Shown here one piece after another: positions 12,980 to 41,010 of a DNA stretch of 64,000 nucleotides (positions are counted from its first letter, which is position 1; every line of letters starts with the position of its first letter). The translations under genes were made by a program, and so were the position numbers. Below the pieces are notes generated by a model. It was not told the DNA's origin, ran no database searches, and saw only the letters and a program-made list of their open reading frames with translations. Origin of the DNA: Siccirubricoccus phaeus (GTDB lineage: Bacteria; Pseudomonadota; Alphaproteobacteria; Acetobacterales; Acetobacteraceae); the NCBI RefSeq assembly GCF_008360935.1, contig NZ_SRXO01000003.1, positions 62,001 to 126,000 on the forward strand, read 5' to 3'.

Positions 12980-14368
12980 TCAGAACGCCGCATGCAGCCG
13001 CAGGCCGATGATCGGCACCGGGCCGCGGTCGCGGTTATAGGCGGGATTGACCACGAGCTGGGCATTCACCGCAAGGTTGATGCCGGCTGCCAGGCGCCAG
13101 TCGTAATAGGTTTCCAGCGTGGTTTCTGGCCCGTAATTCAGCCGCCCGTCGCCGGTGATGAAGCCGATGCCGCCGGCTTCCAGGTAGCGCCGGCGGCCGT
13201 GGCTGATCCAGCCGATGTTGAAGCCGAGCCCCGCCGTGTCTCCCGGCCGGTCCCAGCGCTTGCCGTCGAAGGAGAGACCGCCGGAGACGGCGCGGTCCAT
13301 TTCCGTGAACATCCAGTTCTGGGTGCGGCCGTCATTCCAGGAGAGGCGGGCAAAGAACCCGATGCCCTCGGCCACCTCCTGCTCCAGATTGCCGGCGACC
13401 ATATGCTTCAGGCGGTAGCCCTGCGGGTTGATGGCGAAGGGGGCGGTGCCATCCGGCGGCAGCTCCCCCCAACGGGATTGTCGGGTGCGGGAAAGGCCGT
13501 AGAGGAGGCGTATGGCCCCCGGCCGGCCGCCGATCTCCCAGAACCGGTCCACCTGGCCGATCACCTGCCAGGCGCGGGTAGTGGCGGGGTCGAGGAAAAG
13601 GCCGTTGGCCTGCCGCGCCACCCGGAAGGCGCCGACCCGCACGCCCCAGCGTCCATCCTCCCATTCCACCGCCAGGCCTTCGGTCCAGCCGCGGGCATCG
13701 GCGGCGAAGTCGAAGGCGCCCGCCCCGACCAGCCCCCAGCCGAGGAATTGGGTGCGGGCGTCATGGGCGTAGAGATTGTCGTCGAAGATGTCCCAGACGG
13801 AGAATTTGCCGAGGGTGATCGTCACCCTCTCCCGCGGCCGTGTCTCGCCGAAGCGCAAGGGGTCGGCATCCGCGACGCTGTCGGCGGAAAGCCCGATGGT
13901 CTGGCGGAAGAAGGCGCGGGGAACGAAGAAGGTCGGCTCCGTGCTGCCCAGGCGGAAGGCCTCATTGTTCGGGAAGCTGGCGACGCCGACCGAGTTGGAG
14001 AGGCCGAAGCCGCGGGTGACCGAGGCATCCAGGATGAATTCCGCGCCGTGCCAGAGCCGGCGGCCGAGGATCAGGTCGGTGGAGAGGGTGTTGCGGGCAT
14101 TGGCCACCGCCTTCAGGCTGCCCTCGTCGCTATAGGGGGAGCGGAAGCGGCCGTTGCCCTGCCAGATGAAGGTGGCCTGGCCGCGCAGCATCCAGCCCTG
14201 CTCCTCCAGCCGGTCCTGCAGGGCGGCGAGGTCGGGGAACAGCGCATCCTCGGGCGGGCCGACATTGGCGACGGCGGCGCTGCCATAGCCCTGGGCGGCC
14301 GCCGGCGCCGCGGCGAGGACCGGGGCCAGCGCCACCCATCCCAGCAGCAGCCAGTGCCCTGCCCGCAT
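12980..14368 (-). CDS. OprB-like carbohydrate-selective porin (copy 1)
   Basis: From the ATG at 14368 the protein has 462 residues. It begins MRAGHWLLLGWVALAPVLAA (signal peptide) and has beta-strand-rich sequence ending in a C-terminal Phe (LRLHAAF), as outer-membrane barrels do. OprB-type features: RNTLSTDLILGRRLWHGAEF, FFVPRAFFRQTIGLSADSVA, then ITLGKFSVWDIFDDNLYAHD with the tGKf...D.FD.N.ya.D.r.qFl pattern, and LEAGGIGFITGDGRLNYGPE near the end. OprB proteins let sugars and other small solutes cross the outer membrane. The open frame runs to 14755, but the added 129 codons read through the 54-bp repeat and are not protein-like. A paralogue lies directly upstream. Confidence 0.87.
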   Translation of the reverse strand: MRAGHWLLLGWVALAPVLAAAPAAAQGYGSAAVANVGPPEDALFPDLAALQDRLEEQGWMLRGQATFIWQGNGRFRSPYSDEGSLKAVANARNTLSTDLILGRRLWHGAEFILDASVTRGFGLSNSVGVASFPNNEAFRLGSTEPTFFVPRAFFRQTIGLSADSVADADPLRFGETRPRERVTITLGKFSVWDIFDDNLYAHDARTQFLGWGLVGAGAFDFAADARGWTEGLAVEWEDGRWGVRVGAFRVARQANGLFLDPATTRAWQVIGQVDRFWEIGGRPGAIRLLYGLSRTRQSRWGELPPDGTAPFAINPQGYRLKHMVAGNLEQEVAEGIGFFARLSWNDGRTQNWMFTEMDRAVSGGLSFDGKRWDRPGDTAGLGFNIGWISHGRRRYLEAGGIGFITGDGRLNYGPETTLETYYDWRLAAGINLAVNAQLVVNPAYNRDRGPVPIIGLRLHAAF

Positions 14369-14512
14369 CCCGATCCCTCTGCACCTGGCCGGTACGGTGT
14401 AGGTGCCGGGCATCGGGGCTGGCAAGGAAGCGGCGGGGGCCGGTAGTGCCGGGTGCACATGAAAGCCGCGCGCGGGCGGCTCCGAGAGGGCGCCGCCCCT
14501 TCTTGGCTCTCC

Positions 14513-14540
14513 CTGCCAAAGGCCCAGAGGCCTTTGGCAG
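14513..14540. repeat. 12-bp perfect hairpin near the repeat-rich spacer
   Basis: CTGCCAAAGGCC (14513-14524), loop CAGA, GGCCTTTGGCAG (14529-14540) is a perfect 12-bp stem with a 4-base loop. Beyond it, GACCCGACGGTC (14553-14564) pairs with GACCGTCGGGTC (14608-14619), forming a second 12-bp inverted repeat. Both belong to the block of palindromic sequence between the two porin genes. Confidence 0.75.
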
Positions 14541-14630
14541 GCATGGGTTCGAGACCCGACGGTCCAACCTCCTCTACCCCGTGCCCCCGCCCTGGGTCTG
14601 CCGCTTCGACCGTCGGGTCCGAGACCCACA

Positions 14631-14684
14631 CCGGGGTCCGGGGACTGGTCCAGTCCCCGGTGGGGGTTCGGGGGCAAAGCCCCC
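14631..14684 (+). repeat. 54-bp structured repeat, copy 1
   Basis: The unit begins CCGGGGTCCGGGGACTGGTC and ends GGGGGCAAAGCCCCC. It contains a 19-base hairpin (GGGGACTGG-T-CCAGTCCCC, 14640-14658) followed by a second small hairpin (GGGGGC-AAA-GCCCCC, near 14669-14684). It matches 27180-27233 at 46 of 54 positions with no gap. Four of the eight differences are paired changes that keep the 19-base stem (AC/GT here, GG/CC there). It lies in the spacer between the porin genes. Confidence 0.85.
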
Positions 14685-14708
14685 GATCCTTCCCTTCGCC
14701 TTATTCCG

Positions 14709-14815
14709 CTAGAGCGTGATCGGTTGAGGTCGAATCGACCGAAACCGTGAATCACGCGGCCGAACTATGAGCTAGAGCGGGGTGGGTGAGCGCAGCTCAA
14801 CCGATCCCGCTCTAG
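14709..14815. repeat. TAGAGC-type intergenic palindrome
   Basis: CTAGAGCGTGATCGGTTGAG (14709-14728) and CTCAACCGATCCCGCTCTAG (14796-14815) form an inverted repeat matching at 19 of 20 positions. Inside are smaller palindromes (GGTCG-AAT-CGACC; CGTG-AAT-CACG) and an extra CTAGAGC at about 14772. The right arm contains the stop codon of porin copy 2. The CTAGAGC ends are shared with the hairpins at 24151-24253, marking a dispersed palindromic family of the kind common between alphaproteobacterial genes. It may also act as a transcription end for the upstream porin gene. Confidence 0.8.
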
Positions 14816-16239
14816 AACGCCGCTCGCAGCCGCAGCGTGCCGACCTGCACCGGGCCGCGCGCCGCATTGTAGCCCGGGTTGAAGATGAGCTGGAGATCGA
14901 CCGCCGCGCTCAGCCCGGGAGCCAGGGCGGCGTCGTAATAGGTTTCCAGGATAACCTCCGGCGCATAGCTCAGCCTGCCATCGCCGAGGATGAAGCCGAT
15001 GCCGCCGGCCTTCAGGAAGCGTCGCTGCGGCGCATGCAGCCCGCCGACGTTCATGGCGATCCCGATGGTGTCGTCGTCGCGCTGCCACCGCCAGCCATTG
15101 ATCGAGGCACCGCCCGCCACCGACCAGTCCATCTCGGTGAACATCATGTTCTGGCTGCGACCGTCATTCCAGCCGAGCCGGCCGAACAGGCCCAGCGTGT
15201 CGCTGACCTGCTGGTCCCAGCTCAACGCCAGCATCGCCTTGGTGCGGTAGGCGCGATAGCGCTCGAGATCCGCCTCGCCGGCCCGGAGGGCACGGGCGAG
15301 GTCGTCATAGCGGGCGGAGCGGGTGCGGGAGGCGCCGAGCAGCACCCTGAGCGCGCCCGGGCGCCGCCCGAGCCACCAGAACCGGTCCACCTGGCCGAGG
15401 ATCTGCCAGGCGCGCGTCACCTTGTCGTCCAGGAAATCGCCGCCCTGGCTGCGGTTGACCTGGAAGGCGCCGAGCCGCGTCGCCCAGCGCCCATTCTCCC
15501 ACTCCACCGCGATGCCATGGGTGTAGCCGGCGGGATCGGTGGCGATGTCGAAGGCGCCGGTGCCGACCAGGGCGTAGTTCAGGAACTGGGTCCGTGGGTC
15601 GTGCGAGTAGCGGTTGTTGTCGAAGATGTCCCAGGTGGCGATCTTGCCGGCGGTGATGGTGATGCGCTCCATCGCCAGCGGTCCGGCGAAGCGCATCGGG
15701 TCGTCATCCTGGCCGAGGGCGTCGTTGGAAAGGTCGATGGTCTGGCGCAGGAAGAGCCGGGTGATGTTGTAGTCCCAATTGCGCGTGCCGCCGTGGAAGC
15801 TCTCGGTATTGGTCGGCCCGCCCAGGCCGTGATTGTCGGCGAAGCCGAAGCCGCGGGTGGGGGAAGGGACGAAGATGATTTCCGCATTGTCCCAGAGCCG
15901 GCGGCCGAGCACGATGTCGATGGTCTGCATCGCCGTGCTGTCATGCTTGCCGGAAAGGCTGTTCTCGCCGCGATAGGGGGCGCGGAAGCCGGGCATGGCC
16001 TGGATGGTGTTGGTCATCTGGCCGCGCACTAGCCAACCGCGCGCTTCCAGCGTCGCCAGCCATTCCTCGGCGCCCTCGATCAGCGCGTCGATGTTCCGGT
16101 CGTAGATCGGGCCGGCGACGCCGCGCTGCGCCCGGGCCGGGGCCGGGAGAAGCAGCAGCAGCCCGGTGAGGATCAGGAGGAGCCGGGCCCAGGCGGCCCG
16201 GCGGCGGCGATGGCGGCGATGGAGGCGATGGGGCGGCAT
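14812..16239 (-). CDS. OprB-like carbohydrate-selective porin (copy 2)
   Basis: Protein of 475 residues, with a basic N terminus, a hydrophobic signal segment (ARLLLILTGLLLLLPAPARA) and a C-terminal Phe (LRLRAAF). It aligns along its length with the gene downstream: IDIVLGRRLWDNAEIIFVPS, FLRQTIDLSNDALGQDDDPM, ITAGKIATWDIFDNNRYSHD, RTQFLNYALVGTGAFDIATD and LKAGGIGFILGDGRLSYAPE. This is the same outer-membrane porin family. The two paralogues are in tandem, separated by about 440 bases of palindromic sequence, so they may be transcribed separately. Substrates may differ; I cannot tell from sequence. The start could also lie a few codons downstream at a residue nearer the signal core. Confidence 0.87.
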   Translation of the reverse strand: MPPHRLHRRHRRRRAAWARLLLILTGLLLLLPAPARAQRGVAGPIYDRNIDALIEGAEEWLATLEARGWLVRGQMTNTIQAMPGFRAPYRGENSLSGKHDSTAMQTIDIVLGRRLWDNAEIIFVPSPTRGFGFADNHGLGGPTNTESFHGGTRNWDYNITRLFLRQTIDLSNDALGQDDDPMRFAGPLAMERITITAGKIATWDIFDNNRYSHDPRTQFLNYALVGTGAFDIATDPAGYTHGIAVEWENGRWATRLGAFQVNRSQGGDFLDDKVTRAWQILGQVDRFWWLGRRPGALRVLLGASRTRSARYDDLARALRAGEADLERYRAYRTKAMLALSWDQQVSDTLGLFGRLGWNDGRSQNMMFTEMDWSVAGGASINGWRWQRDDDTIGIAMNVGGLHAPQRRFLKAGGIGFILGDGRLSYAPEVILETYYDAALAPGLSAAVDLQLIFNPGYNAARGPVQVGTLRLRAAF

Positions 16240-16381
16240 GGGAAAGATGCGCTACCGGACCCGCCCCCGGCGCGTCCATCGCGGCCCCGGGAGTGACACG
16301 AAAGCTTCAAAACACGAAGGGGGTTTGACCGCAGCCGCCGGCTTCGTGATCCTTGGCGTCATAGCCGGAAGGATAAGCACC

Positions 16382-17089
16382 ATGACCGAACGCGGCTTCA
16401 CCCGGGCCGATCTGGACCTGCTGCGGCGCTGGGACACGCCCACCATCTGCAACGCGCTGGAGCTGGTGGCGCCCGCCCGGCGCGGCCGCGGCTTCACCCT
16501 GCAGCCCTTCGTCTGCGCCGACCCCTCCCTGCCGCCGATCTGCGGCCTGGCCCGCACCGGCCAGATCCGCGCCGCCGCCCCTTCCGGCCGGACCAGGGAG
16601 CAGGACCGGGCCGCCCGCATCGGCTGGTACGAATATGTGGCGGATGCCGATCTGCCGACCATCGTCGTCATCGAGGATCTGGACGAGACGCCCGGCTTCG
16701 GCGCCTTCTGGGGCGAGGTGAACAGCAATGTCCATAAGGGCCTCGGCTGCCTCGGCTGCGTCACCTCCGGCTCCTTCCGCGACCTCGACATGCTGGCGCC
16801 GGGCTTCCAGATCATCGGGGCGATGGTGAATCCGAGCCATGCGCATGTGCATATCGTCGATTTCGGCCGGGACGTGATCGTCCATGGCATGCCGGTGATG
16901 CATGACGATGTGGTGCATGCGGACCGCCACGGCGCGGTGGTGATCCCGGCGGAGGTGGTGAAGCAGGTTCCGGCCGCGATCGACCTCCTGACGCGGAAGG
17001 AGGCGGTGATCCTGGAGATGGCGAAGCGCGACGACTTCGACATCCACAAGCTGAAGGACGCGCTGGCGCGGTCCGACGAGATCCACTGA
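16382..17089 (+). CDS. RraA-like protein (4-hydroxy-4-methyl-2-oxoglutarate aldolase/RraA superfamily)
   Basis: From the ATG at 16382 the protein has 235 residues. It starts MTERGFTRADLDLLRRWDTP and continues with TICNALELV, as RraA-type enzymes do (D-TP-xxDAL). The active-site region reads FWGEVNSNVHKGLGCLGCVT then SGSFRDLDML, matching the G-x2-x-x-x-A..LG..G.V..G.vRD pattern, with the Arg-Asp pair that binds substrate and metal. Members are aldolases of pyruvate-derived acids or RNase E inhibitors; the enzyme role is more likely outside Gammaproteobacteria. A thioesterase gene follows 4 bases after the stop codon, so the two are co-transcribed. The upstream extension of the frame is antisense to the porin leader. 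Confidence 0.85.
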   Translation: MTERGFTRADLDLLRRWDTPTICNALELVAPARRGRGFTLQPFVCADPSLPPICGLARTGQIRAAAPSGRTREQDRAARIGWYEYVADADLPTIVVIEDLDETPGFGAFWGEVNSNVHKGLGCLGCVTSGSFRDLDMLAPGFQIIGAMVNPSHAHVHIVDFGRDVIVHGMPVMHDDVVHADRHGAVVIPAEVVKQVPAAIDLLTRKEAVILEMAKRDDFDIHKLKDALARSDEIH

Positions 17090-17093
17090 GGGC

Positions 17094-17564
17094 ATGGAAG
17101 GCAGCAACCTGGCCCCGCTGCCGGACGGGCCGCCGCTCGCGGTGGTCCGCCCGGACTGGGTGGACAACAATGGCCACATGAACATGGCCTTCTACCTGGC
17201 CGTGTTCGACATGGCGACGGACCAGCTCTGGCCGAAGCTCGGCCTGGGCCCTGCCTTCCGGGCCAAGGGGCTCGGCACCTTCGCGGCCGAGACCTGGGTG
17301 AGCTACGTGCGGGAGGTGCATGAGGGCATGCCGCTCGCCTGCACCAATGAGGTGCTGGCCCATGACGGCAAGCGGCTGCTGGCGGTGCACCGGATGTATC
17401 ATGCCACGGAGGGCTGGCTGGCGGCGGAGAATGAGGTGCTCTACCTCTGCGTCGATCTCTCCGTGCGGCGGGTGACGAGCTGGCCGGAGGAGGTGGTGGC
17501 GCGCTTCGCCGCGCTGGCAACGGGACGGCCGGCGCGGCGGCTGGCGCTGAAGCGCAAGGAGTGA
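17094..17564 (+). CDS. Acyl-CoA thioesterase, hotdog fold (4HBT type)
   Basis: Protein of 156 residues with RPDWVDNNGHMNMAFYLAVF near residue 20. This is the D-x-x-GHxNxxxY active-site helix entrance of 4HBT thioesterases; the Asp/Asn at the start of this motif and the helix following it form the catalytic site. ETWVSYVREVHEGMPLACTN and the strand after it continue the hotdog sheet. The related thioesterase domain is often fused to or next to carnitine dehydrogenases. It is the second gene of the RraA-like/thioesterase pair. The acyl-CoA substrate is unknown. Confidence 0.85.
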   Translation: MEGSNLAPLPDGPPLAVVRPDWVDNNGHMNMAFYLAVFDMATDQLWPKLGLGPAFRAKGLGTFAAETWVSYVREVHEGMPLACTNEVLAHDGKRLLAVHRMYHATEGWLAAENEVLYLCVDLSVRRVTSWPEEVVARFAALATGRPARRLALKRKE

Positions 17565-17604
17565 CGGGGAGCTCCGCCCCTTGGCGGCAGGGTCGCCAAC
17601 CCCC

Positions 17605-17628
17605 AGCGGAGGCTCTGCCTCCTCCGCT
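17605..17628. terminator. Hairpin between convergent genes, possible terminator
   Basis: AGCGGAGG (17605-17612) pairs with CCTCCGCT (17621-17628) across an 8-base loop. It lies in the 175-base spacer between the convergent thioesterase (plus) and methyltransferase (minus) genes. There is no T-run, so termination is inferred from position only. The rest of the spacer holds no reading frame of note. Confidence 0.35.
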
Positions 17629-17739
17629 CCCGCCGGGGGAGAAGGCCTTGCCCGGGAAGCGACCAGGCTGACCACAGCTTCCCGGCCAGGGTCCGCCTCG
17701 TCGCCGCCATCATCCACTCACGGCGAACCGCAACAGGGC

Positions 17740-18639
17740 CTAATCGGCTCCAGGCTTCCGCAGGAGCAGGCTCAGAAGCTCTTCCAGGAAAGGGCCCGGG
17801 ACGGCGGGAGCGATCTCCGCCAGAAGCGCCGCGTAGCGCTTGCCCGGCGATGCTTCCCAGGCCTGGCGATAATGCGGATGCCTGGCGCAGAGGAATTCGT
17901 GCTGGCTCTGCCTGACCTCGACAGCGTCGAGCCCGATGGCCAGGTCGATTTCATGGAAGCTCGCGCCGCGGCCCCATCGGGCAAGCGTGACCGGATCGCG
18001 CCCCGCCAAGGCTTCGGCGAAGTCGCTCCGGCTGGACTTCACCGCATAATCCATGGCGAGATCGTCCGGCAGCCAGTGGAAGAAGGGCATCAGCGACGTA
18101 TGATCGTCGCGGTACCAGAGCCGGTTGGGTGTCTCGTAGATGCAGAGATGCCCGCCCGCCGGCAGGTTGTCCCACGCCGCTCGCAGCGTGGCGATTCGCT
18201 CCTGATAGGTCATGTGCTCCAGCGTGGCCGAGAACACGATCAGGTCGTAGGGCTCGGCATACAGATCCTCGAGGTCCAGCGCATTCCGAACCAGGAGGCG
18301 GACATTGTGGAGACCGTGCAGCGCCACCCGGTCCGCTGCGACGCGCAGATGGCTCTCCTCGATGTCGATCCCATCGACCTGACGGCTGACCTCGGCGAGG
18401 GCGACGATGGAGGCCCCGGTCCCGGCGCCGATCTCCAGGACCCGCGCGCCGGAGAGGCTCATATGCTCTGCGAGCCAGGGGATGACGTTGTTCCTGTGCT
18501 CTGTCAGCCGGTGGATCGTGTGGATGAAAAGTTCCCGCTTGAGCGTTTCGGGATCCTGTGCCGCGTAGCCTGGCATGAAGTGCTCCAGCAGCGATCGCTC
18601 GAGCTGCGCCAATTTCTCGCCCGCCAGATCCCCGGCCAT
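17740..18639 (-). CDS. Class I SAM-dependent methyltransferase
   Basis: From the ATG at 18639 the protein has 299 residues. Motif I is VLEIGAGTGASIVALAEVS at about residue 70, followed by acidic motif II (VDGIDIEESHLRVAADR) and a Rossmann continuation YDLIVFSATLEHMTYQERI; CIYETPNRLWYRDDHTS follows the motif IV region. This is the Methyltransf_11/23-type fold; the substrate is not evident. Its codon use is noticeably less G/C-biased than that of the flanking genes, which suggests later acquisition. It is isolated: convergent with the thioesterase gene and 193 bases away from the next gene. Confidence 0.85.
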   Translation of the reverse strand: MAGDLAGEKLAQLERSLLEHFMPGYAAQDPETLKRELFIHTIHRLTEHRNNVIPWLAEHMSLSGARVLEIGAGTGASIVALAEVSRQVDGIDIEESHLRVAADRVALHGLHNVRLLVRNALDLEDLYAEPYDLIVFSATLEHMTYQERIATLRAAWDNLPAGGHLCIYETPNRLWYRDDHTSLMPFFHWLPDDLAMDYAVKSSRSDFAEALAGRDPVTLARWGRGASFHEIDLAIGLDAVEVRQSQHEFLCARHPHYRQAWEASPGKRYAALLAEIAPAVPGPFLEELLSLLLRKPGAD

Positions 18640-18832
18640 GAGAACCCCCTTCTCCGGCCGTGACGGCCGATCGCCCATCTGCGTGCGATTACCGCCTCGG
18701 CGCGTGCGGCAGCAAGGCAGCCCGGGCGCCGCCCCCTGAGGCAATGACTCCGCCGTGCGGATCTGCCGATCCTGACGGAGGCAATTGCCGGACATCCTGC
18801 GGCCAGGTCAGCGGCGTGGCAGGGGCGGCCCT

Positions 18833-20029
18833 TCAGCAATCCCCGGCATCATCCGTCAGCAATTCCAGCTGCCAGGTCATCTCCGATTCCGAAAGCGGCC
18901 ACCCGCCATCCGCCTTGGGCGGCAGCGCGGCGGAGGGGGTGAGCTGCCCCAGCACCGTCTGCGCCAGCGTGGCGGTGCGCGGCGAAAACCCCGCCTTCCA
19001 GCAGAGGCTCACCAGCCCTTTGGCGCTGCGCAGCCGGACCGCGCGCTGCACCGCCCCCTCGCCCAGCCCGGCGCCCCTGGCCAGGGCGGCGCCCATGGCG
19101 AAGCGGTTGCCCTGCATGCCGGCCGTCTCGAAGGCCGCCTCGGGCGATTGCTCCTCCGCCCGCGGCCCGGCCCCTTCCAGCCGGCGTTCCAGCCGCTCGC
19201 GCAGCTCCCGGGTCAGGCCGGCATCCAGGTCCCAGCGCGCTGCCATGGCGTCCAGCAGATGGTCGGCCAGGCAGGCGGCCAGGCGCTGTGCCACGCCGGG
19301 CGGCAGCACCGGCCGCCGCACCAGGCTCTCCTGCCAGGGGATGTGCCGGGCGGCGCCCAGCACCACCCGGTCCAGCGCCGCTTCCCGGATATTGGCGGAG
19401 GGGTTGTCCAGCAGCGCCGCTACCGGCTGCACCGCGTCGGTTTCGATGATGGCGTCGGACAGCGTCTCGCTCAGCGCCGGGCGGCGGGCGATGGCGGTCA
19501 GCGTCCCCGGCGCCGGCGGCGCCTCCACCAGCGCCAGCAGATCCGCGTCGGTGAGCAGGGGGGAGGAGCGGATGACCGGCTCCGCCACCTCCATCGCCAT
19601 GTCCCGCGCCAGGCGCAGGATGATGTCCCGCGGCGCGTCCGGCAGCGCCTTCAGCTCCTCCGCCAGCACCGCGCGGACGGTGACGGCGGCATCCGCCAGC
19701 AGCCCCTGCAGGGTCTGCCAGCTCTGCCGGCCACGCCGGTCCGCGGCGGTGGAGAGGTGTGGCGCCCGCGGCGCCAGCTTGCGCCCCAGCGCTTCCCGCA
19801 CCTCCGGCGCCGCATCCTGGGCCAGCAGCCGGTCCGCCTGCACCGGCGTCGCGCCATTGGCCGCGACGGCGGCGCGCACCGCGACGGCCGCGTCCGCGGC
19901 GAGGAAATAGAGGATCTCCGGCGCCGCGTCGCGCTGCGCCGCCAGCGCCACCCTTTCCGCCTCCTGCCCGGAGGCGGCGATGCGCTTGGCCTGCTCGCTG
20001 ACCGCCGAGGGGGTCTTCACGCCGCTCAT
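18833..20029 (-). CDS. DUF2336 domain protein
   Basis: From the ATG at 20029 the protein has 398 residues, almost wholly alpha-helical with HEAT-like repeat character, for example ASGQEAERVALAAQRDAAPE then ILYFLAADAAVAVRAAVAAN and QDAAPEVREALGRKLAPRAP. A central segment ILRLARDMAMEVAEPVIRSS followed by PLLTDADLLALVE matches the DUF2336 core found in Alphaproteobacteria (for example VAxxLLxxSPLLxDxDLLxLI). Biochemical function is unknown; the repeats suggest protein-protein contacts. The start codon overlaps the stop codon of the upstream GGDEF gene by 4 bases (ATGA), so the two proteins are made together and may act in the same signalling step. Confidence 0.8.
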   Translation of the reverse strand: MSGVKTPSAVSEQAKRIAASGQEAERVALAAQRDAAPEILYFLAADAAVAVRAAVAANGATPVQADRLLAQDAAPEVREALGRKLAPRAPHLSTAADRRGRQSWQTLQGLLADAAVTVRAVLAEELKALPDAPRDIILRLARDMAMEVAEPVIRSSPLLTDADLLALVEAPPAPGTLTAIARRPALSETLSDAIIETDAVQPVAALLDNPSANIREAALDRVVLGAARHIPWQESLVRRPVLPPGVAQRLAACLADHLLDAMAARWDLDAGLTRELRERLERRLEGAGPRAEEQSPEAAFETAGMQGNRFAMGAALARGAGLGEGAVQRAVRLRSAKGLVSLCWKAGFSPRTATLAQTVLGQLTPSAALPPKADGGWPLSESEMTWQLELLTDDAGDC

Positions 20030-21429
20030 CCGGCGGCCTCCGGGGCGGATGGCGGCGCCAGCCGCCAATGCCCGCGCCCGCCGCGCTTCACCGCATACAT
20101 CGCCGCATCGGCGGCGGCGACCAGCGCATCCGGCCGAAGCTGCGCCCCCGGGCCGCGCACCGCGCCACCGATGCTGAAGGTGAGCTTCGGCCCCTGCCGC
20201 CCGGGCGGCCAGGGGGAGAGCCGCAGCGCCGCGGCGCAGAGCGCCGCCGCCCGCCGCCCGGTGGCTGCTGCGTCCGCATCCTCCAGCCACAGGGCGAATT
20301 CATCGCCGCCCAGCCGGGCGGCGAGATCGACCGGCCGTGCCATCTCCCGCAGCACGGCGGCGACGGCGACCAGCGCGGCATCCCCCGCCTCATGCCCCAG
20401 CGTGTCGTTGATCGGCTTGAAATTGTCGAGGTCGATGAAGAGCAGCGCGCCGCGCTCTCCCGGCCGGTCCAGCCGCCGGCGGAGGTCGTCCATGAAGGCG
20501 CGGCGGTTCAGCAGCCCGGTCAGCGCGTCGGTGCGGGCCTGCAGCTCCAGCTCCCGCTGCAGCATGTGGTTGCCGAGGGTGACGAAGAGCAGGTCGGCGA
20601 TCGCGTGCAGCAAATGCCGGTCATCGGCGTCGAAATCCCGCTCCCCCGCCGCGCGCCAGACCAGCAGGGCGTGGAAGGGCGGCACGCGGTGCGGCGTCGG
20701 CAGCAGGACCAGATGCTCCCCGCCCGGGCCGGTGAGGAAGCGCGGCTCCGCCGCCGCCATCAGCGGCGCGACCAGGGGTAGTAACGGGCCGGTCTCCACC
20801 CCGTGCTGCCGGGTGATGGCGGCCGCCCCGCCCGGCGCGAGTTCCAGCAGCGCCGCGCCGCTGCAGCCGATGGCGGGGGGCAGGGATTCCAGCGTGGCGG
20901 CCAGCATGCGCGGCGCCAGCACCTGGCGGCGCACCCGGCGCGCCAGGGTCTCCAGCGCTGCGGCGCGGCGCAGCGCGGCGGCCTGGGCCTCGGCCTCCTG
21001 CACCTCCGCCGTCACGTCCCGGCCGCAGCCGCGCAGGCCCGCATAGCTGCCGCCGGCATCCGCCAGCGGCACCAGCGCCAGGCTGAAGCAGGCGGGCGAG
21101 CCCGAGGCGTGGCGCAGCCAGGTGCGCAGCCCTCGCACCGGGTGCAGCAGGGCGAAGGGGTCCGGTTCCGGGTGCAGCAGCAGGATCTGCGCCGGTTTGC
21201 CCAGCAGCCATTCCGCCGGCCAGCCGCGGAAGGGGTCGGGCGAGAGGAAGGCGAGGCGCCCGGCCGGGTCCGTCTCGAAGGCCAGGTCGATGGCTAGGCT
21301 CGCGATGTCCCGCCAGCGATGCCGCGATTCCAACAGCGCCACCCGGAATCCGGGCTCGGCGTCCGGCGGCGGGACGGCCGGGTCCCGGGGTGCGGCACCC
21401 GGCGCGCCAATCATTTCGGGACTCGGCAT
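20026..21429 (-). CDS. Diguanylate cyclase with PAS and GAF-like sensory regions
   Basis: From the ATG at 21429 the protein has 467 residues. An N-terminal PAS-like region (about 30-150: DLAFETDPAGRLAFLSPDPF, LRGCGRDVTAEVQEAEAQAA at its end), a GAF-like region (about 165-300: HLVLLPTPHRVPPFHALLVW) and a C-terminal GGDEF domain (DALTGLLNRRAFMDDL, FIDLDNFKPINDTLGHEAGD, ARLGGDEFALW). The catalytic GGDEF is intact, so it should make cyclic di-GMP from GTP. An RxxD inhibitory site (RPVD) lies five residues before GGDEF, so product feedback is expected. There is no membrane segment; a cytoplasmic sensor is likely. The downstream DUF2336 gene is translationally coupled. The start is uncertain; ATGs at 21528 and 21414 are alternatives. 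Confidence 0.9.
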   Translation of the reverse strand: MPSPEMIGAPGAAPRDPAVPPPDAEPGFRVALLESRHRWRDIASLAIDLAFETDPAGRLAFLSPDPFRGWPAEWLLGKPAQILLLHPEPDPFALLHPVRGLRTWLRHASGSPACFSLALVPLADAGGSYAGLRGCGRDVTAEVQEAEAQAAALRRAAALETLARRVRRQVLAPRMLAATLESLPPAIGCSGAALLELAPGGAAAITRQHGVETGPLLPLVAPLMAAAEPRFLTGPGGEHLVLLPTPHRVPPFHALLVWRAAGERDFDADDRHLLHAIADLLFVTLGNHMLQRELELQARTDALTGLLNRRAFMDDLRRRLDRPGERGALLFIDLDNFKPINDTLGHEAGDAALVAVAAVLREMARPVDLAARLGGDEFALWLEDADAAATGRRAAALCAAALRLSPWPPGRQGPKLTFSIGGAVRGPGAQLRPDALVAAADAAMYAVKRGGRGHWRLAPPSAPEAAG

Positions 21430-21560
21430 GGCCACAGGGTGCACGGCCGTGGTGAACGTGGCGTTATCGCCGCCGGGCGGGGCGGCGGCCGGCCCGGGCG
21501 GTTGACACCCCTTGCCCCGCCTATGCATGGTCCGCGGCCTTCCGCTCGGGACCTCGCGCC

Positions 21561-22403
21561 ATGGACCTCGCCGCCCTCGCCAGCCGCATCGAAGCCCTCT
21601 GGGCGCGGCGGGACACCGTCACCTCCTCGACCGGCGGGGAGGACCGCGCCGCCGTCGAGACCGCGCTCGAAGCCCTGGATGCCGGTCAGGCGCGGGTGGC
21701 GGAGCCGGATGCGGCGGCGCCGGGCGGCTGGAAGGTGAACCAGTGGCTGAAGCAGGCCGTGCTGCTCTCCTTCCGCCTGACCGATTCCGCGCCGATGGAC
21801 ACGGCGGCGGGCGCCTATGACAAGGTGCCGCTGAAATTCGCCGATTGGGGCGCCAACCGCTTCAAGGATGCCGGCTTCCGCGCCGTACCCGGCGCCGTCG
21901 TCCGCAAATCCGCCTATATCGCCCCGGGCGCGGTGCTGATGCCGAGCTTCGTCAATGTCGGCGCCTGGGTCGGCAGGAACACGATGGTGGATACCTGGGC
22001 CACCGTCGGCTCCTGCGCCCAGATCGGCGCCAATGTCCATCTCTCGGGCGGCGTCGGCATCGGCGGGGTGCTGGAGCCGCTGCAGGCCAACCCGGTCATC
22101 ATCGAGGATGACTGCTTCGTCGGCGCCCGCTCCGAGGTGGCCGAGGGCGTCGTTGTGGAACGCGGCGCCGTGCTCTCCATGGGGGTCTTCCTCGGCGCCT
22201 CGACGAAGATCATCGACCGCGCCACCGGCCAGGTGCATGTCGGCCGCGTGCCGGCCTATTCCGTGGTGGTGCCGGGCACGCTGCCGGGCAGGCCCCTGCC
22301 GGACGGCACGCCGGGCCCCGGCCTCTACTGCGCCGTCATCGTCAAGACGGTGGATGCGCAGACGCGGTCCAAGACCAGCATCAACGAGCTGCTGCGGGAC
22401 TAG
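21561..22403 (+). CDS. dapD: 2,3,4,5-tetrahydropyridine-2,6-dicarboxylate N-succinyltransferase
   Basis: Protein of 280 residues, the standard DapD length. It transfers succinyl from succinyl-CoA to tetrahydrodipicolinate in the succinylase route to meso-diaminopimelate and lysine. An N-terminal helical domain is followed by a left-handed beta-helix of hexapeptide repeats: [60 protein letters not shown], then [20 protein letters not shown] and [20 protein letters not shown]. The C terminus [10 protein letters not shown] is typical. It is directly followed by dapE, so the two consecutive steps are co-expressed. The gene is divergent from the GGDEF gene. Confidence 0.97.
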
Positions 22404-22407
22404 GCAC

Positions 22408-23544
22408 TTGTCCCGCAACGCCCCTGCCGACCCGCTGCCCCTGGCCCAGGCGCTGATCCGCTGCCCGAGCGTCACCCCGGCCGATGCCGGGGCGCTGGCG
22501 GTGCTGGAGGCGGCGCTGCAGCCGCTCGGCTTCACCTGCCACCGGCTGCGCTTCGGCGAGATCGAGAATCTCTACGCCCGCCACGGCACCGGCGGGCCGC
22601 ATTTCTGCTATGCCGGCCACACCGACGTCGTCCCGCCCGGCGAGCAGGGCTGGGCGGAGAGCCCCTTCTCCGGTGCGGTGAAGGATGGCGTGCTCTATGG
22701 GCGCGGCGCCTGCGACATGAAGGGCGGCATCGCCGCCTTCGTCGCCGGCCTTACCGACTACCTGGCGGCAAACGGCGACAGGCCGGGCAGCATCAGCCTG
22801 CTCATCACCGGCGATGAGGAAGGTCCGGCCAAGGACGGCACCATCAAGGTGCTGGAATGGATGGCCGAGCGCGGCGAGATCCCGGACATGGCCCTGGTCG
22901 GCGAGCCGACCTCCAAGGTTGCGCTCGGCGACATCGTCAAGGTCGGCCGCCGCGGCAGCATGACGGCCTACATCACCCTCTACGGCACCCAGGGACACAG
23001 CGCCTATCCGCAGCGCGCCGACAACCCGATCCACCGCCTGGTCCGCGTGCTGCACCGCCTCACCGCCCAGCCGATCGACCAGGGCAGCGAATTCTTCGAG
23101 GCGACCACCCTGCAGGTCACCGGCTTCGACGTCGGCAACACCGCGAACAACGTCATCCCCGCCGAGGCGCGGGCGATGCTGAACATCCGCTTCAACGATT
23201 TGCACAGCAGCGCCAGCCTGACCGAGCACCTGCACGCCGCGCTGCAGGCCGAGGAGGCGCGCTACGACATGCGCGTCGAGGTCTCCGGCGAGAGTTTTCT
23301 CACCTCGCCCGGCCCCTTCGTCGAGGCGCTGAAGCGTGCCGTCGAGCGCAGCGCCGGCCGTACCCCCTCGCTCGATACCGGCGGCGGCACCTCGGATGCC
23401 CGGTTCATCGCCCGCTACTGCCCGGTGGCGGAGCTCGGCGCCGTCGGCGCCACCATGCACAAGGTGAATGAAAGCGTGCCGGTCGCCGAGCTGCGCGACC
23501 TCGCCGCGCTCTACCGGACCGTGCTGGAGGAGGTCTTCGCCTGA
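22408..23544 (+). CDS. dapE: Succinyl-diaminopimelate desuccinylase
   Basis: Protein of 378 residues. It removes succinate from N-succinyl-L,L-diaminopimelate using two zinc ions, the step that follows transaminated DapD product. Metal ligands are visible: H in CYAGHTDVVPPGEQGW, D in GRGACDMKGGI, the E-E pair in ITGDEEGPAKDGT, E in LVGEPTS and H in GAVGATMHKVNE. The dimerisation lid domain contains GTQGHSAYPQRADNPIH. No ATG is available near the right place; the start is a TTG at 22408, 4 bases after the dapD stop codon, giving MSRNAPADPLPLAQALIRCP. The reading frame continuing upstream is inside dapD and is not used. Confidence 0.96.
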   Translation: MSRNAPADPLPLAQALIRCPSVTPADAGALAVLEAALQPLGFTCHRLRFGEIENLYARHGTGGPHFCYAGHTDVVPPGEQGWAESPFSGAVKDGVLYGRGACDMKGGIAAFVAGLTDYLAANGDRPGSISLLITGDEEGPAKDGTIKVLEWMAERGEIPDMALVGEPTSKVALGDIVKVGRRGSMTAYITLYGTQGHSAYPQRADNPIHRLVRVLHRLTAQPIDQGSEFFEATTLQVTGFDVGNTANNVIPAEARAMLNIRFNDLHSSASLTEHLHAALQAEEARYDMRVEVSGESFLTSPGPFVEALKRAVERSAGRTPSLDTGGGTSDARFIARYCPVAELGAVGATMHKVNESVPVAELRDLAALYRTVLEEVFA

Positions 23545-23594
23545 GCGGCGCGGCCCCGCCCCCTCCGCCGCCGCTGGGTCCGCCGCCGCTTCGC

Positions 23595-24149
23595 ATGGTG
23601 ATCGAGGCCGGGCTGCGCGGCGCCTTCCTGCTGGCGCGCGGCCGGCCCGAGGGGCTGATGCTCATCGAGGACACGCCGGAGGGGGCGCTGCGCAGCTTCT
23701 GGGCCGCGGCGGTCTGCCTGCCCGCCTTCCTCGCCCTCCGCCTCTTCGACTGGGGCCAGGGCACCGCGCCCGGCGGCTCGTTCAGCCTGGCGCTGGCGGC
23801 GGAATTCCTCGGCTACGTCGCCTCCTGGGCGGGGTTCGGCCTCGCCTCCCGGCGACTCGCCGCCGTCATGGGGCGGCAGGCGGAATGGCCGCATTTCCTG
23901 GCGGCCTTCAACTGGGCGAATGTGGTCCAGTACCTGGTGCTGATCCTGCTGACCGTGCCCGGCGCGGCGCTGCCAGATACGCTCTCCTCCGGCCTCACCT
24001 TGGCGGCGGCGGGGTACGCGCTGTGGCTGGAATGGTTCATCGCGCGGGTGGCGCTGCTGCTGCCGGGCGGGCAGGCCATCGGCTTCGTCGCGCTGGACCT
24101 GCTGGTGGCGCTGACGGTGCAGCTTGTGGTGAACGGGCTCTCGCCTTAG
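23595..24149 (+). CDS. Integral membrane protein of unknown function
   Basis: Protein of 184 residues with about five hydrophobic segments (ALRSFWAAAVCLPAFLALRL, SLALAAEFLGYVASWAGFGL, WANVVQYLVLILLTVPGAAL, LTLAAAGYALWLEWFIARVA and FVALDLLVALTVQLVVNGLS). I do not recognise the family. It follows dapE after 50 bases on the same strand and could share its transcript. An in-frame non-ATG extension reaches back to the dapE stop codon, giving a Pro-rich start, but the ATG at 23595 is preferred. The gene ends at a strong double hairpin (24151-24253), probably the end of the dap transcript. Confidence 0.75.
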   Translation: MVIEAGLRGAFLLARGRPEGLMLIEDTPEGALRSFWAAAVCLPAFLALRLFDWGQGTAPGGSFSLALAAEFLGYVASWAGFGLASRRLAAVMGRQAEWPHFLAAFNWANVVQYLVLILLTVPGAALPDTLSSGLTLAAAGYALWLEWFIARVALLLPGGQAIGFVALDLLVALTVQLVVNGLSP

Positions 24150-24150
24150 A

Positions 24151-24253
24151 GCAAACTCCGATCAGGTGGGAGCACCTGATCGGAGTAATTTGCCCGCCTG
24201 AACAAAGACCTAGAGCATTCTCCATGCACCAAGGCGCAGGGAGAATGCTCTAG
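24151..24253. repeat. Pair of perfect TAGAGC-type hairpins after the dap operon
   Basis: Hairpin 1: ACTCCGATCAGGTG (24155-24168), loop GGAG, CACCTGATCGGAGT (24173-24186), a perfect 14-bp stem. Hairpin 2: CTAGAGCATTCTCC (24210-24223), 16-base loop, GGAGAATGCTCTAG (24240-24253), again 14 of 14. Hairpin 1 is also preceded by TAGAGC, so both belong to the same family as the palindrome at 14709-14815. They lie between the convergent dap operon and cco operon and could stop transcription from both sides. Confidence 0.85.
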
Positions 24254-24256
24254 CCA

Positions 24257-24280
24257 GGGGCGCTGCCCCGGACCCCGGTG
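24257..24280 (-). repeat. Degenerate fragment of the 54-bp structured repeat
   Basis: Read on the minus strand the sequence is CACCGGGGTCCGGGG joined directly to CAGCGCCCC. That is the first 13 bases and the last hairpin strand of the 54-bp unit with its 19-base hairpin missing. It lies immediately after the TAGAGC hairpins, in the same spacer. Confidence 0.5.
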
Positions 24281-24336
24281 TGAGCTTGCCGCCAGCAGGT
24301 TCGGCCAGCCGACGTCCTGCCCGGAGGCGTGGGAGG

Positions 24337-24549
24337 TCAGCCTTGCCGGGCCAGCTTCTCGCCCTCGTCGAAGCCGCGCTTCAGCAGGAAGAAGCCGAAG
24401 GCCAAGCCGAAGCCCAGCAGGCCCCAGCCGAAGACGCCGATGCCCAGATCCCGCGCCTTCGCCGCGGCCACCAGCCCCAGCAGCGCCAGCAGCCCGGACA
24501 CCACCAGCAGCACCACCCGAAGGACCGGGAATTGCGGTTGGACGGCCAT
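24337..24549 (-). CDS. Small membrane protein at the end of the cco operon
   Basis: Protein of 70 residues: MAVQPQFPVLRVVLLVVSGL then two hydrophobic helices (VVLLVVSGLLALLGLVAAAK; GIGVFGWGLLGFGLAFGFFL) and a charged tail KRGFDEGEKLARQG. I do not recognise the family. It starts 6 bases after the ccoS stop codon, same strand, and so is the last gene of the oxidase operon. A structural or assembly role in the cbb3 oxidase is suggested by position only. Confidence 0.7.
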   Translation of the reverse strand: MAVQPQFPVLRVVLLVVSGLLALLGLVAAAKARDLGIGVFGWGLLGFGLAFGFFLLKRGFDEGEKLARQG

Positions 24550-24555
24550 GAGACC

Positions 24556-24699
24556 TCACTCCTTCTCGTCGAATAGGATGCGTGCGGCCGCCCCGTCCGG
24601 GTCGTCATACTGCCCGGTGCGCAGCGTCCACACGTAGAAGATCAGGGCCAGCAGCCCCAGCAGCAGGGCCAGCGGCACCAGCACGGTCAGCACATTCAT
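24556..24699 (-). CDS. ccoS: cbb3-type cytochrome oxidase assembly protein CcoS
   Basis: Protein of 47 residues: MNVLTVLVPLALLLGLLALI, FYVWTLRTGQYDDPDGAAAR and ILFDEKE. The single membrane helix followed by W-x(2,3)-GQ-YDD-DG-xxRILFD is the exact CcoS signature. CcoS is needed for cofactor insertion into the CcoN subunit. Its ATG overlaps the ccoI stop codon by 4 bases (ATGA), so it is coupled to the copper ATPase. Confidence 0.93.
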   Translation of the reverse strand: MNVLTVLVPLALLLGLLALIFYVWTLRTGQYDDPDGAAARILFDEKE

Positions 24700-27053
24700 C
24701 GCGTGGCCTCCCTCCCCAGCTTCAAGGCGTTCAGGATGACGATCAGCGAGGAGGAGGCCATGACCAGCGCCGCGATCAGCGGCGTCACCAGCCCCAGCAC
24801 CGCCGCCGGTACCGCCACCAGGTTGTAGATCAGGCTGAAGCCGATATTCTGCCGCGCCGCCGCTTGCGCCCGCCGCGCCGTGGCGATGGCGGCCGGCAGC
24901 GCCGCCAGCCCCTCCGCCCGCAGCACCAGGTCGGCGGCGGTCTGCGCCAGATCCGTGGCGCCGGCCGGGCTGGCGGAGGCATGGGCGAGCGCCAGCGCCG
25001 CCGCATCGTTCAGCCCGTCGCCCAGCATCAGCGGCTTGCGGCCCTCGGCCAGCAGCGCGGTCAGCCGCGCCGCCTTGCCCGCCGGCGTCACCCCGGCGCG
25101 CCAGTCCGGGATGCCGAGCAGCGTGGCCGCCTCCGCCACCGCCGGTGCGGCATCGCCGGAGAGCAGCTCCGTGGTCAGGCCGAGCTGGTGCAGCGCGGCG
25201 ACGGCCGCCGCGGCATCCGGCCGCAGCCGTTCGGCGAAGCGGAAGGCGATCGGCGCTGCCGTCTCATCCTTGCGCCAGTAGAGAGTCAGCCCGTCGGCCC
25301 GGCCGGGCAGGCCGCAGAACGCCGCGCTGCCCAGCCTCTCCCGGCCGCGCCGCAGGCCGGCGCCCGGCACTTCCTCCACGCCCATGGCCGGCACCGCCTC
25401 CGGGCAGGCGCGCAGCAGGGCGCGGGCCAGCGGATGGCGGCTGCTGGCCGCCAGCGCGGCCGCCGCCGCCAGCGCCCCGGCCGGCCGCCGTGGATCCGGC
25501 AGCAGGGCAGGGGCGCCCAGGGTGAGGGTGCCGGTCTTGTCCAGCACCGCATGGTCGCATTCTGCCAGCCGCTCCAGCGCTGTGGCGGAGGTGACCAGCA
25601 CCCCGCGCCGGAACAGCGCTCCGACCGCCACCACCTGCACCGCCGGCACGGCGATGGCGAGGCCGCAGGGGCAGGTGACGATCAGCGCGGCGACCGCCGG
25701 CACCAGCGCCGCCTGCCAGGAGACGCCCACCCAGAGCCACCAGCCGAGGAACGTGGCCAGCGCCACCGCATGCACCGCCGGCACGTACCAGGCGGCGGCG
25801 CGGTCGGCGATCGCCACGTAGCGGCCGCGCGCCTGCTCCGCCTGGGAGAGCAGCCGGGCGAGCTGGGCCAGCGAGCCTTCCGAGGCCGCCGCGGTAACAA
25901 GCTGGGTAAAGGCGGCGCCGAGATTGACTGCTCCGGCCGGCAGCGCTTCGCCCGCGGCGAAGCGGCGCGGCAGGCTCTCGCCGGTGGAGGAGGCGGTGTC
26001 CAACAGGGCCTCGCCGGCTTCCAGCACGCCGTCCAGCGCCAGCCTTTCGCCCGGCGCCACCAGCAGGCGGTCGCCGGGCCGTACCGCCTCGGCGCCGAGC
26101 CGCTCGGCGCGGCCATCGGCGGCCAGCCGCGTCACCTCGGCGGATTGCAGGGCCAGCAGCTCCGCCCCGGCCTGGCGGGCCCGCTGCCGCGCCGCCCGGT
26201 CCAGCACCCGGCCGCCCAGCAGCAGGAAGAGCAGGGCGGTGGCGCCGTCGAACCAGGTATAGGGGCCGTTCCGCAGCGCCTCGGACAGCGACATGGCGGT
26301 GGTTGCCAGCACGCCGAGCGAGACGGCGAAATCCATGTTCACCCGGCCGGCGCGCAGCCCGGCCCAGGCGGAGCGGTAGAAGGGCAGCCCGGCCACCAGC
26401 ACCACCGGCAGCGCCACCAGCGCGGCCAGCCAGTGCAGCAGGGCGCGCGTCGCCTCCCCCATGTCGCTGCCGGCCCAGACGGCGACGGAGAGCATCATCA
26501 CATTGGTCGCGCCGAAGGCGGCGATGCCGAGCGCCCGGAGTAGGGCGCGGCCCTCGCCATCCTCCGCCGCCTTCAGGCAGGCGGCCGACCAGGGCGCCAC
26601 CTGGAAGCCGAGCCGCGCGACCAGCAGCGCCAGCGCCTCGGCCCGCGCGGCCGGGCCTTGCCAGGTGATGGAGAGCCGCCGCGCCGTCAGGCTGGCGCGG
26701 GCGCGGGTGACGTCGGGCTCGGCGGCCAGGGCCTGCTCCACCAGCCAGACGCAGGCGCCGCAGGTCAGCCCGTGCAGCATCAGGTCCAGGCTATGGGTCC
26801 CCTCCCGCCCGGGCACGGCGCGCGCCGCCCAGTCCACCGGCGGCAGCTCCGTGGGCTTCTGCGCCCCTGCCGCGGCTTCCCGCCGCCGGTAGAACGCGTC
26901 CAGCCCCAGCCCGGAGATGAGCGCCGCCGCACCCTCGCAGCCGGCGCAGCAGAAGCGGCCCGCACCCGGCGGCACCGGCGCGCCGCAATGGGCGCAGGCG
27001 GCGGCGGAAAGGCCGGGATCGGCCGGGGTGAGGGTAGCGGGCTGCATGGTCAT
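24696..27053 (-). CDS. ccoI: Copper-exporting P1B-type ATPase for cbb3 oxidase assembly
   Basis: Protein of 785 residues. It supplies copper for cbb3 oxidase maturation by ATP-driven transport across the inner membrane. An N-terminal Cys-rich segment (CAHCGAPVPP, then RFCCAGCEGA) precedes a heavy-metal-associated domain with GLTCGACVWLVEQAL near residue 95. Later come the actuator TGE (SSTGESLPRR), the transmembrane metal site TCPCGLAIA (CPC), phosphorylation site DKTGTLT, and the hinge GDGLNDAAAL. The N-terminal Cys cluster before HMA is typical of CcoI/FixI. It is followed by ccoS (overlapping) and lies 205 bases from ccoH; that spacer holds the structured repeat. Confidence 0.95.
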   Translation of the reverse strand: MTMQPATLTPADPGLSAAACAHCGAPVPPGAGRFCCAGCEGAAALISGLGLDAFYRRREAAAGAQKPTELPPVDWAARAVPGREGTHSLDLMLHGLTCGACVWLVEQALAAEPDVTRARASLTARRLSITWQGPAARAEALALLVARLGFQVAPWSAACLKAAEDGEGRALLRALGIAAFGATNVMMLSVAVWAGSDMGEATRALLHWLAALVALPVVLVAGLPFYRSAWAGLRAGRVNMDFAVSLGVLATTAMSLSEALRNGPYTWFDGATALLFLLLGGRVLDRAARQRARQAGAELLALQSAEVTRLAADGRAERLGAEAVRPGDRLLVAPGERLALDGVLEAGEALLDTASSTGESLPRRFAAGEALPAGAVNLGAAFTQLVTAAASEGSLAQLARLLSQAEQARGRYVAIADRAAAWYVPAVHAVALATFLGWWLWVGVSWQAALVPAVAALIVTCPCGLAIAVPAVQVVAVGALFRRGVLVTSATALERLAECDHAVLDKTGTLTLGAPALLPDPRRPAGALAAAAALAASSRHPLARALLRACPEAVPAMGVEEVPGAGLRRGRERLGSAAFCGLPGRADGLTLYWRKDETAAPIAFRFAERLRPDAAAAVAALHQLGLTTELLSGDAAPAVAEAATLLGIPDWRAGVTPAGKAARLTALLAEGRKPLMLGDGLNDAAALALAHASASPAGATDLAQTAADLVLRAEGLAALPAAIATARRAQAAARQNIGFSLIYNLVAVPAAVLGLVTPLIAALVMASSSLIVILNALKLGREATR

Positions 27054-27085
27054 GACGGCCAGCGATCCAGATAAGGAGAAAGATC

Positions 27086-27233
27086 GGGGGCGCTGCCCCC
27101 GAACCCCCGCCGGGGCCAGGACCTGGCCCCGGACCCCGGTCCAAGTTTCAGATCCGACGGTTCAACCTGCCGACTCGGACCGGGGTCCGGGGGGTGGTCC
27201 ACCCCCCGGCGGGGGTATGGGGGCAGAGCCCCC
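27086..27233. repeat. Two copies of the 54-bp structured repeat in inverted orientation
   Basis: The right unit (27180-27233) contains the 19-base hairpin GGGGGGTGG-T-CCACCCCCC (27189-27207). The left unit, read on the minus strand, contains GGGGCCAGG-T-CCTGGCCCC (27112-27130). Both keep the same flanks (CCGGGGTCC before, CGGGGGT then a GGGGGC/GCCCCC hairpin after) as the copy at 14631-14684. The stems differ only by paired changes. A central spacer contains CCGACGGTTCAACCT, which resembles CCGACGGTCCAACCT at 14556-14570. It separates ccoH from ccoI in an otherwise tightly overlapping operon. Confidence 0.85.
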
Positions 27234-27258
27234 ATTCTGCCTGCCCGGGCGGGGCTGC

Positions 27259-40584: not shown

Positions 40585-40703
40585 CAGGCGGGTCCTCTCA
40601 CCCTCTTCTGGGCGCGGGCATGGCAATCCCCATGCCTGGCATAGCGCATGCTGTGCATAGGCCATGCCGTGGAAGCACGGAAGTGTGAGTGGAAAATGAA
40701 GGT

Positions 40704-40731
40704 GGGGGGCTTCTGTTGCCCGGCGCCCCCC
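40704..40731 (-). terminator. Intrinsic-type terminator after ssrA
   Basis: On the minus strand GGGGGGC (40725-40731) pairs with GCCCCCC (40704-40710) across a 14-base loop, followed by ACCTTCATTTTCC. A strong 7-bp GC stem with a moderately T-rich tail directly after the coding piece of tmRNA fits transcription termination before sspB. Confidence 0.6.
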
Positions 40732-40734
40732 GAG

Positions 40735-41010
40735 CCGCGCTTAACGCTGCTGTTTAGGCAGCGACAGCGAGTGCGTCGTTGTCGTTCGCACTTGGATTTG
40801 GCCCGATAACGGCGGAACCATGCCGGGCAAAAACGATCCCTTTACCACGCGCGTCGAGCCTGTTTCGCCCCCATGGCCCCGCTGAGCGGGTGGTGGAGGC
40901 GCCGGGCACTGCCCCCGGGTCCGCAACGCTTATTCCAGACCGCGTTTATCGCCATAGTCACCGAGGTGACGGCAGGCATATAGCGACTCCCAAGGCGGAA
41001 TTCGAGTCCC
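40735..41010 (-). ncRNA. ssrA: tmRNA, circularly permuted two-piece form
   Basis: Read on the minus strand. The acceptor piece (about 41010-40891) ends CGCCTCCACCA and has a T-arm CCGGG-GGCAGTG-CCCGG. An 18-base excised segment with a CCCGC-TCA-GCGGG hairpin (40890-40873) follows. The coding piece starts GGGGGCGAAACAGGCTCGAC at 40872. GGGGGCG pairs with CGCCTCC over 7 bp including G3-U70, the alanine identity pair. The tag frame (40789-40754) encodes ANDNDALAVAA then TAA; the first Ala comes from the tRNA part. This permuted order is known for alphaproteobacterial ssrA. tmRNA rescues stalled ribosomes and tags the products for ClpXP. The 5' end of the acceptor piece is approximate. Confidence 0.93.

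Follow-up and report, generated by a model that had tools for sequence, protein, structure and literature searches.

What kind of sequence is a 54-bp repeat that keeps its hairpin while the bases on both sides of the stem change, and how do such matched changes come about? The question is raised by a stretch of 64,000 nucleotides from Siccirubricoccus phaeus, referred to here as the window, for which a preliminary description had reported three full units of the repeat and a truncated one. All four are found in the sequence, with their stems at the positions first given (Table 1), and the 54-bp unit is confirmed to be one arm of a dispersed element made of inverted pairs. We consider, with a probability of roughly 0.6, that this is a dispersed non-autonomous element of the REP/REPIN kind, whose spreading unit is most likely an inverted dimer of about 160 bp, with two double-hairpin arms around a 35-40-bp spacer. 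The family is present in high copy number, its dimers keep one orientation, sites are filled in some genomes and empty in others, covariation occurs in both hairpins, and the arms of the intact dimers found have unlike stems.

Table 1. Repeat units of families A and B in the window (positions count from its first base; stem sequences were read directly)
Feature	Position	Strand	Stem 1	Stem 1 sequence	Other parts
Family A arm	27079-27139	-	27112-27130 (CCAGG type)	GGGGCCAGGTCCTGGCCCC	CCGGGGTCC; second hairpin 27084-27102
Spacer of 27-kb dimer	27140-27179				AGTTTCAGATCCGACGGTTCAACCTGCCGACT type, resembles spacers of other copies
Family A arm	27180-27238	+	27189-27207 (GGTGG type)	GGGGGGTGGTCCACCCCCC	CCGGGGTCC; second hairpin 27217-27235
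Family B arm, left half of hybrid dimer	14485-14555	-			hairpin TGCCAAAGGCC/GGCCTTTGGCA at about 14514-14539
Family A arm with partial spacer, right half of hybrid dimer	14591-14688	+	14640-14658 (ACTGG type)	GGGGACTGGTCCAGTCCCC	second hairpin 14668-14686
Truncated family A relic	~24254-24313	-			S. soli has a fuller arm at the matching place

Arms of this family (family A) follow the plan ...ACTC-xx-ACCGGGGTCC, stem 1, GGCGGGGGT, a second hairpin and sometimes a third. Stem 1 is 19 nt long in most intact copies, and the loop of the second hairpin is, for example, AGA, AGC or AAA. Folded as single-stranded DNA, the three window arms gave z-scores of -5.0, -3.0 and -4.6 relative to shuffles, and the computed RNA fold of the 27-kb dimer (-136 kcal/mol, z -9.3) is a single long hairpin, interrupted by small bubbles at the places where unlike stems oppose each other. 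The unit at 14631-14684 had been taken for a full one; its stem stands, but it forms the right-hand part of a hybrid dimer at 14485-14688, and the left-hand part belongs to a sister family, family B.

A strict pattern found 75 copies in the genome of 6,551,407 bases, as against none with the reversed pattern. For 1.24 Mb of the genome, a profile of the arm, built from 31 seeds and with training copies that come from part of the sample itself, gave 119 arms distributed over 84 places; for a 1.95-Mb sample it gave 141 arms over 99 places, and for the reversed sequence none, so that chance GC-rich palindromes are ruled out. By simple proportion from that sample the whole genome would hold about 330 places; the genome-wide search called for at the outset thus yields a family of an estimated few hundred copies (75 by the strict pattern, 141 arms sampled). 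The 99 places comprise 42 inverted pairs and 57 singlets, and the orientation is '-+' in 42 of 42 dimers, inverted doublets with one constant orientation being a feature of REPINs and many short palindromic copies, mostly intergenic, a feature of REPs. Near-identical copies of one dimer lie at the ends of two contigs (G000 C1:1-158 and the end of C22); these repeats may break the assembly, with some copies missing or counted double. No known RNA family accounts for the units: at gathering thresholds, Rfam returned only two tmRNA models in the window, where a tmRNA gene of the alphaproteobacterial (permuted) type lies at 40701-41009 (-).

Family B shares the design, with GGTTCC, a stem CCAAAGGCC or CCAAGGGCC, GGCGGGG and a second hairpin, and its spacer resembles that of family A. 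In the 1.95-Mb sample it numbers 132 arms, with 41 dimers, and the reversed sequence has none; there are two hybrid A/B dimers, one of them at the 14-kb place of the window. Further palindromic modules are concentrated near the units (TTGGCGGCANYGCCGCCAA in 10 of 11 occurrences, TCGAACGCATGCGTTCGA in 4 of 4, GTCGCGGGCANTGCCCGCGAC in 4 of 4 and GGGGGCAGNGCCCCC in 26 of 27, in a vicinity that makes up 2.1% of the sample); for the looser core GGCGGCANNGCCGCC the count is only 12 of 24. Nested modules were located on sample contigs C1, C12, C45, C23, C51 and C52, and by eye they lie inside or between the standard hairpins, as if whole hairpins had been swapped or nested. Another palindromic repeat family, bounded by CTAGAGC...GCTCTAG, is present at 14709-14815 and 24210-24253 of the window; a loose pattern for it gave 53 matches in the 1.95-Mb sample and 8 in the reversed sequence, and it lies within or against some A copies (e.g. 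C1:230757).

Comparison with relatives shows sites that hold the element in one genome and lack it in another. At the junction of Siccirubricoccus soli, the closest named relative, that matches the 27-kb dimer, the alignment runs through without the element, and the next start codon lies at the upstream stop (ATGA). Relative to S. soli, the window is longer by about 210 bases at this point, and the element accounts for about 160 of them; no clean target-site duplication was seen at this aligned empty site, the insert extending about 50 bp beyond the element. The inverted arms that the terminal inverted repeats of a MITE of a DDE transposase would require are present. The protein encoded downstream, which matches Pfam E1-E2_ATPase and HMA, is 91% identical in S. 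soli. The 27-kb pair had been described as inverted around a spacer inside the cco operon, and the relatives' genes indeed abut or overlap where it sits; its neighbours are two genes of what appears to be a single operon. When 80 relative loci were searched with the profile, and 38 of their upstream stretches also inspected, a single unit was found, in locus L120 of S. soli, and this lies further downstream, at the place of the relic at about 24.26 kb of the window, where it forms a fuller arm. Among congeners, the 14-kb copy is absent in G001, as is the dimer at C12:94427 (64 bases between matches versus 187 here); the dimer at C45:89962 is absent in G002 (54 versus 201) and present in G001 (L298 versus L105 9962-10106), where the order of the two stem types is reversed as though by an inversion of the core in situ. 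In all, 4 of 4 sites examined for gain or loss are variable, two of them, outside the window, having been picked as intact dimers, and one relic is shared. A covariance model matched 26 of 80 genomes including the window's own, all within the 48 of its taxonomic family and none among the 32 outside, with per-genome copy counts that are lower bounds, since no more than 64 candidates were scored in any genome, and E-values that are rough; the repeat family thus extends beyond this genome, as the search of related genomes first proposed was meant to establish, and among these 80 genomes it stays within the taxonomic one. Outside the genus, the loci have in common the two-hairpin plan more than the sequence (by eye), and in the best match from another genus (G038, L218) a B-like hairpin appears to lie upstream of an A arm, also by eye.

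The 84 places comprise 32 between tandem genes, 27 between convergent and 6 between divergent genes, 18 inside called ORFs and 1 at an edge, according to gene calls made with a home-made GC3 rule that is rough, over-extends genes and wrongly puts the 14-kb place inside an ORF, where the OprB match in 12980-14446 runs to the profile's end even if the ORF stops short of the repeat. Among all intergenic regions, tandem ones make up 54%, convergent ones 24% and divergent ones 22%. Thus 66 of the 84 places are outside called ORFs; in tandem places the element lies at a median of 36 bp past the stop codon, and the upstream stop is the nearer gene boundary in 23 of 32. Most copies are located past a stop codon or between converging genes, the settings in which they are least harmful, and may affect transcript ends there. 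The same enrichment, together with the very stable RNA fold of the 27-kb dimer, would be expected if the repeat were an RNA element maintained by the host, a two-way terminator or a stabiliser of mRNA 3' ends, with its structure under host selection. A weak excess of T beyond the last hairpin (0.36 at three of the six positions that follow it, versus 0.146 genome-wide, in 36 copies) points in that direction, as does one terminator-like site at the 27-kb arm; that site, however, is the only one between 24 and 28 kb, where shuffles gave a mean of 0.8. Since sites are gained or lost between congeners, the 27-kb copy separates two genes of one apparent operon, and most one-off stems are decaying (see below), we regard a host-maintained element as unlikely.

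The matched base changes that first drew attention to the repeat were assessed in an alignment of 57 arms, in which 96.6% of the cells are paired as against 80.6% in shuffles; these are 57 of 87 filtered arms, themselves 87 of 119 matches, and the alignment leans to intact copies, the omission of 30 arms, mostly weak or with nested hairpins, inflating the percentage paired. Cells changed on both sides number 176 versus 53 in shuffles, and the covariation score is 0.405 versus 0.126; none of 500 shuffles reached the observed value for any of these three measures. The other two of the five measures stay within the shuffle range, namely the pairs with any two-sided change (10 versus 9.2, 184 of 500 shuffles as high) and the further pair types (31 versus 28.9, 68 of 500). 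When the partner was shifted by one base, pairing fell below 60%, and covariation is present in both hairpins of an arm, the second included.

What the changes consist of becomes clearer from the 68 of 141 arms whose 19-nt stem could be read by pattern. Six recurrent stems account for 50 of the 68, and all six are fully paired (8/8), alternative complementary stems inside one family being again a REP feature; several of the same types recur in congener G001. By comparison, 13 of the 18 one-off stems are not fully paired (5 are), and relative to the nearest recurrent stem the changes are confined to one side of the pairs in 10 of the 18 and always affect both sides in 2; another 3 have changes of both kinds, and 3 are changed in the loop only. 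Most one-off stems being imperfect, resident copies mostly decay uncompensated, and the matched changes for the most part reflect long-standing differences among the stem types that succeeded. The claim that the hairpin is preserved by paired changes therefore holds beyond shuffles on most measures, in the refined form that such changes mainly separate six perfect stems. Uncompensated variation of stems elsewhere, which the preliminary description had named as evidence to the contrary, is largely what is seen within lineages, not between them. One stem of G001 (C42:44667-44709), not fully paired, combines a left half of the CCAGG type with a right half of the ACCGG type and is possibly a recombinant.

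Another explanation would place the paired changes in the mutation process itself, with template switching within the hairpin copying one arm of the stem onto the other (quasi-palindrome correction). Two one-off stems, of the CCAAG and ACTGG types, do have one pair changed on both sides, and the recurrent types are only one to four pairs apart (AGGGG and AGGAG by a single pair plus the loop), so that stepwise paired change is possible. An efficient correction should nevertheless have restored the 13 stems that are not fully paired, including the 10 one-sided ones, and we find it quite unlikely that the paired changes arose in this way. The stem pattern fits a copying step that requires the hairpin, as the REP-like reading supposes; it is no demonstration of selection on each resident copy.

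A further regularity concerns the two arms of a dimer, which have different stems in 26 of 26 intact dimers found by pattern in this genome and in 6 of 6 in G001 (G002 has no intact dimers by the same pattern). Stem permutation, with labels assigned by eye and near-variants counted as different, leads one to expect 3.3 identical pairs in this genome and 1.5 in G001 (joint P 0.0014); the dimer C8:129073 was counted as unlike on a difference of a single pair plus the loop, and the dimers C1:33 and C22:83568, at contig ends, may be one copy. When each of the 17 stem combinations is counted once, 1.2 identical pairs are expected (P 0.23), which means that common descent could explain much of the pattern. 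A separate parse of 58 dimers, with both stems readable at 7/8 or better in 26 and C12_125052 misparsed, again gave 0 identical in 26 (P 0.024), and the second hairpins are identical in 0 of 22 dimers over nine bases (P 0.15) and in 1 of 22 over the inner six (P 0.03). In family B, none of the 7 dimers with both stems parsable (of 41) has identical arms. One could go further and propose that two RAYT-free, double-hairpin sister families obey a rule that arms must differ, that the rule is driven by palindrome loss and diversifies stems in matched pairs, and that the paired changes reflect selection for unlike arms combined with hairpin-dependent copying by a further enzyme; we offer this as a doubtful extension.

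Much of the above has parallels in three papers on REP elements. The high-copy short hairpins, inverted dimers, sub-families with alternative complementary stems, hybrid dimers, preference for unlike arms and location after genes all resemble the REPs of Di Nocera et al. (2013; PMC3733652), who describe HH/TT dimers and report that many REP families prefer unlike-arm dimers, a preference that 'has no obvious explanation' and for which SbcCD is suggested. The inverted doublet around a spacer, foldable as one long hairpin, corresponds to the spreading unit of REPINs (Bertels and Rainey 2011; PMC3116915), in which compensatory changes are common, and the modular mosaics with palindromes kept are like BIMEs and RAYT-associated REPs (Nunvar et al. 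2010; PMC2817692), where palindromes persist in modified REPs, 'suggesting selection for complementary mutations'. A REP-like element was among the roles first proposed, and size, dimer arrangement and position after genes agree with it. There are also differences. Each arm here consists of two, sometimes three, successive hairpins, unlike those of REPs (PMC3733652). REPIN doublets are more conserved than singlets (PMC3116915), but no such excess was found here (median 47.9 bits for 84 dimer arms versus 45.5 for 57 singlet arms, P 0.41; the best arm of each dimer has a median of 64.4 bits, a comparison with singlets that is biased). The tag of GTAG/CGTC REPs (PMC3733652) is almost missing beside stem 1: of the 90 arms (of 141) that could be parsed, none has GTAG and one has CGTC within 10 bases of it, the outer edge of the second hairpin being checked by eye, and 12 have GAGG, the complement of CCTC, a reported variant of CGTC. 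CGTC repeats are stated to be missing from Acetobacteraceae (PMC3733652).

REPINs accompany RAYTs (PMC3116915), and a RAYT gene and a GTAG-type motif are central to BIMEs (PMC2817692); neither was found here. The RAYT-type transposase sought as a partner failed to appear: with the Y1_Tnp profile (PF01797, E 0.001), which served for the genome-wide transposase search, no match was obtained in this genome or in the family-carrying congeners G001 and G002, while a control search was positive in 5 of 14 genomes. Y1_Tnp is present in 7 of 48 genomes and in one (G021) of the 29 family genomes searched. Could the repeat nonetheless be a true REP family mobilised by a RAYT that has been lost or falls outside the Y1_Tnp profile? 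Its form and dimer arrangement match REPs (PMC3733652, PMC3116915), and G021 has at least two matches to the element model beside its Y1_Tnp gene; against this stand the enzyme's absence from three congeneric genomes and the near absence of the tags, and we judge the idea improbable. CGTC REPs, too, lack a dedicated transposase (PMC3733652). An autonomous partner between distant arms was also considered and rejected, as ORFs sought in 3 of the 4 listed '-...+' spaced pairs and found in 2 gave, in Pfam searches of 3 ORFs, a P-type ATPase, an amidohydrolase and a TctC receptor, and no transposase.

For the REP-like reading, one may picture a trans-acting activity that would copy the element through single-strand hairpins. 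If copying needs the hairpins, copies with perfect stems would be those that multiply, and the outcome would be a handful of perfect stem types, each amid dead copies decaying base by base. Dimers with identical arms would form long perfect palindromes, presumably deleted or cut by an SbcCD-type activity, and with such palindromes lost, unlike-arm dimers would survive.

Paired changes in REP hairpins are already known in kind, as described in PMC3733652, PMC3116915 and PMC2817692. What looks new by the literature searched is the family, with its double-hairpin arms, without the usual tag or Y1 enzyme, in two sister families and with intact dimers that are all unlike; searches on Siccirubricoccus repeats, on palindromic repeats of Roseomonas and Acetobacteraceae and on double-hairpin elements, which covered few subscription papers, did not return the element. 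The findings carry a caution, in that significant covariation in a DNA repeat need not imply a functional RNA, and with the unlike-arm pattern one can test why heterodimers are favoured. RAYT transposases are the usual explanation for REP-like repeats; with well over 100 copies, insertion differences between congeners and no Y1_Tnp in three congeneric genomes, the family makes other means of spreading hairpin repeats directly testable.
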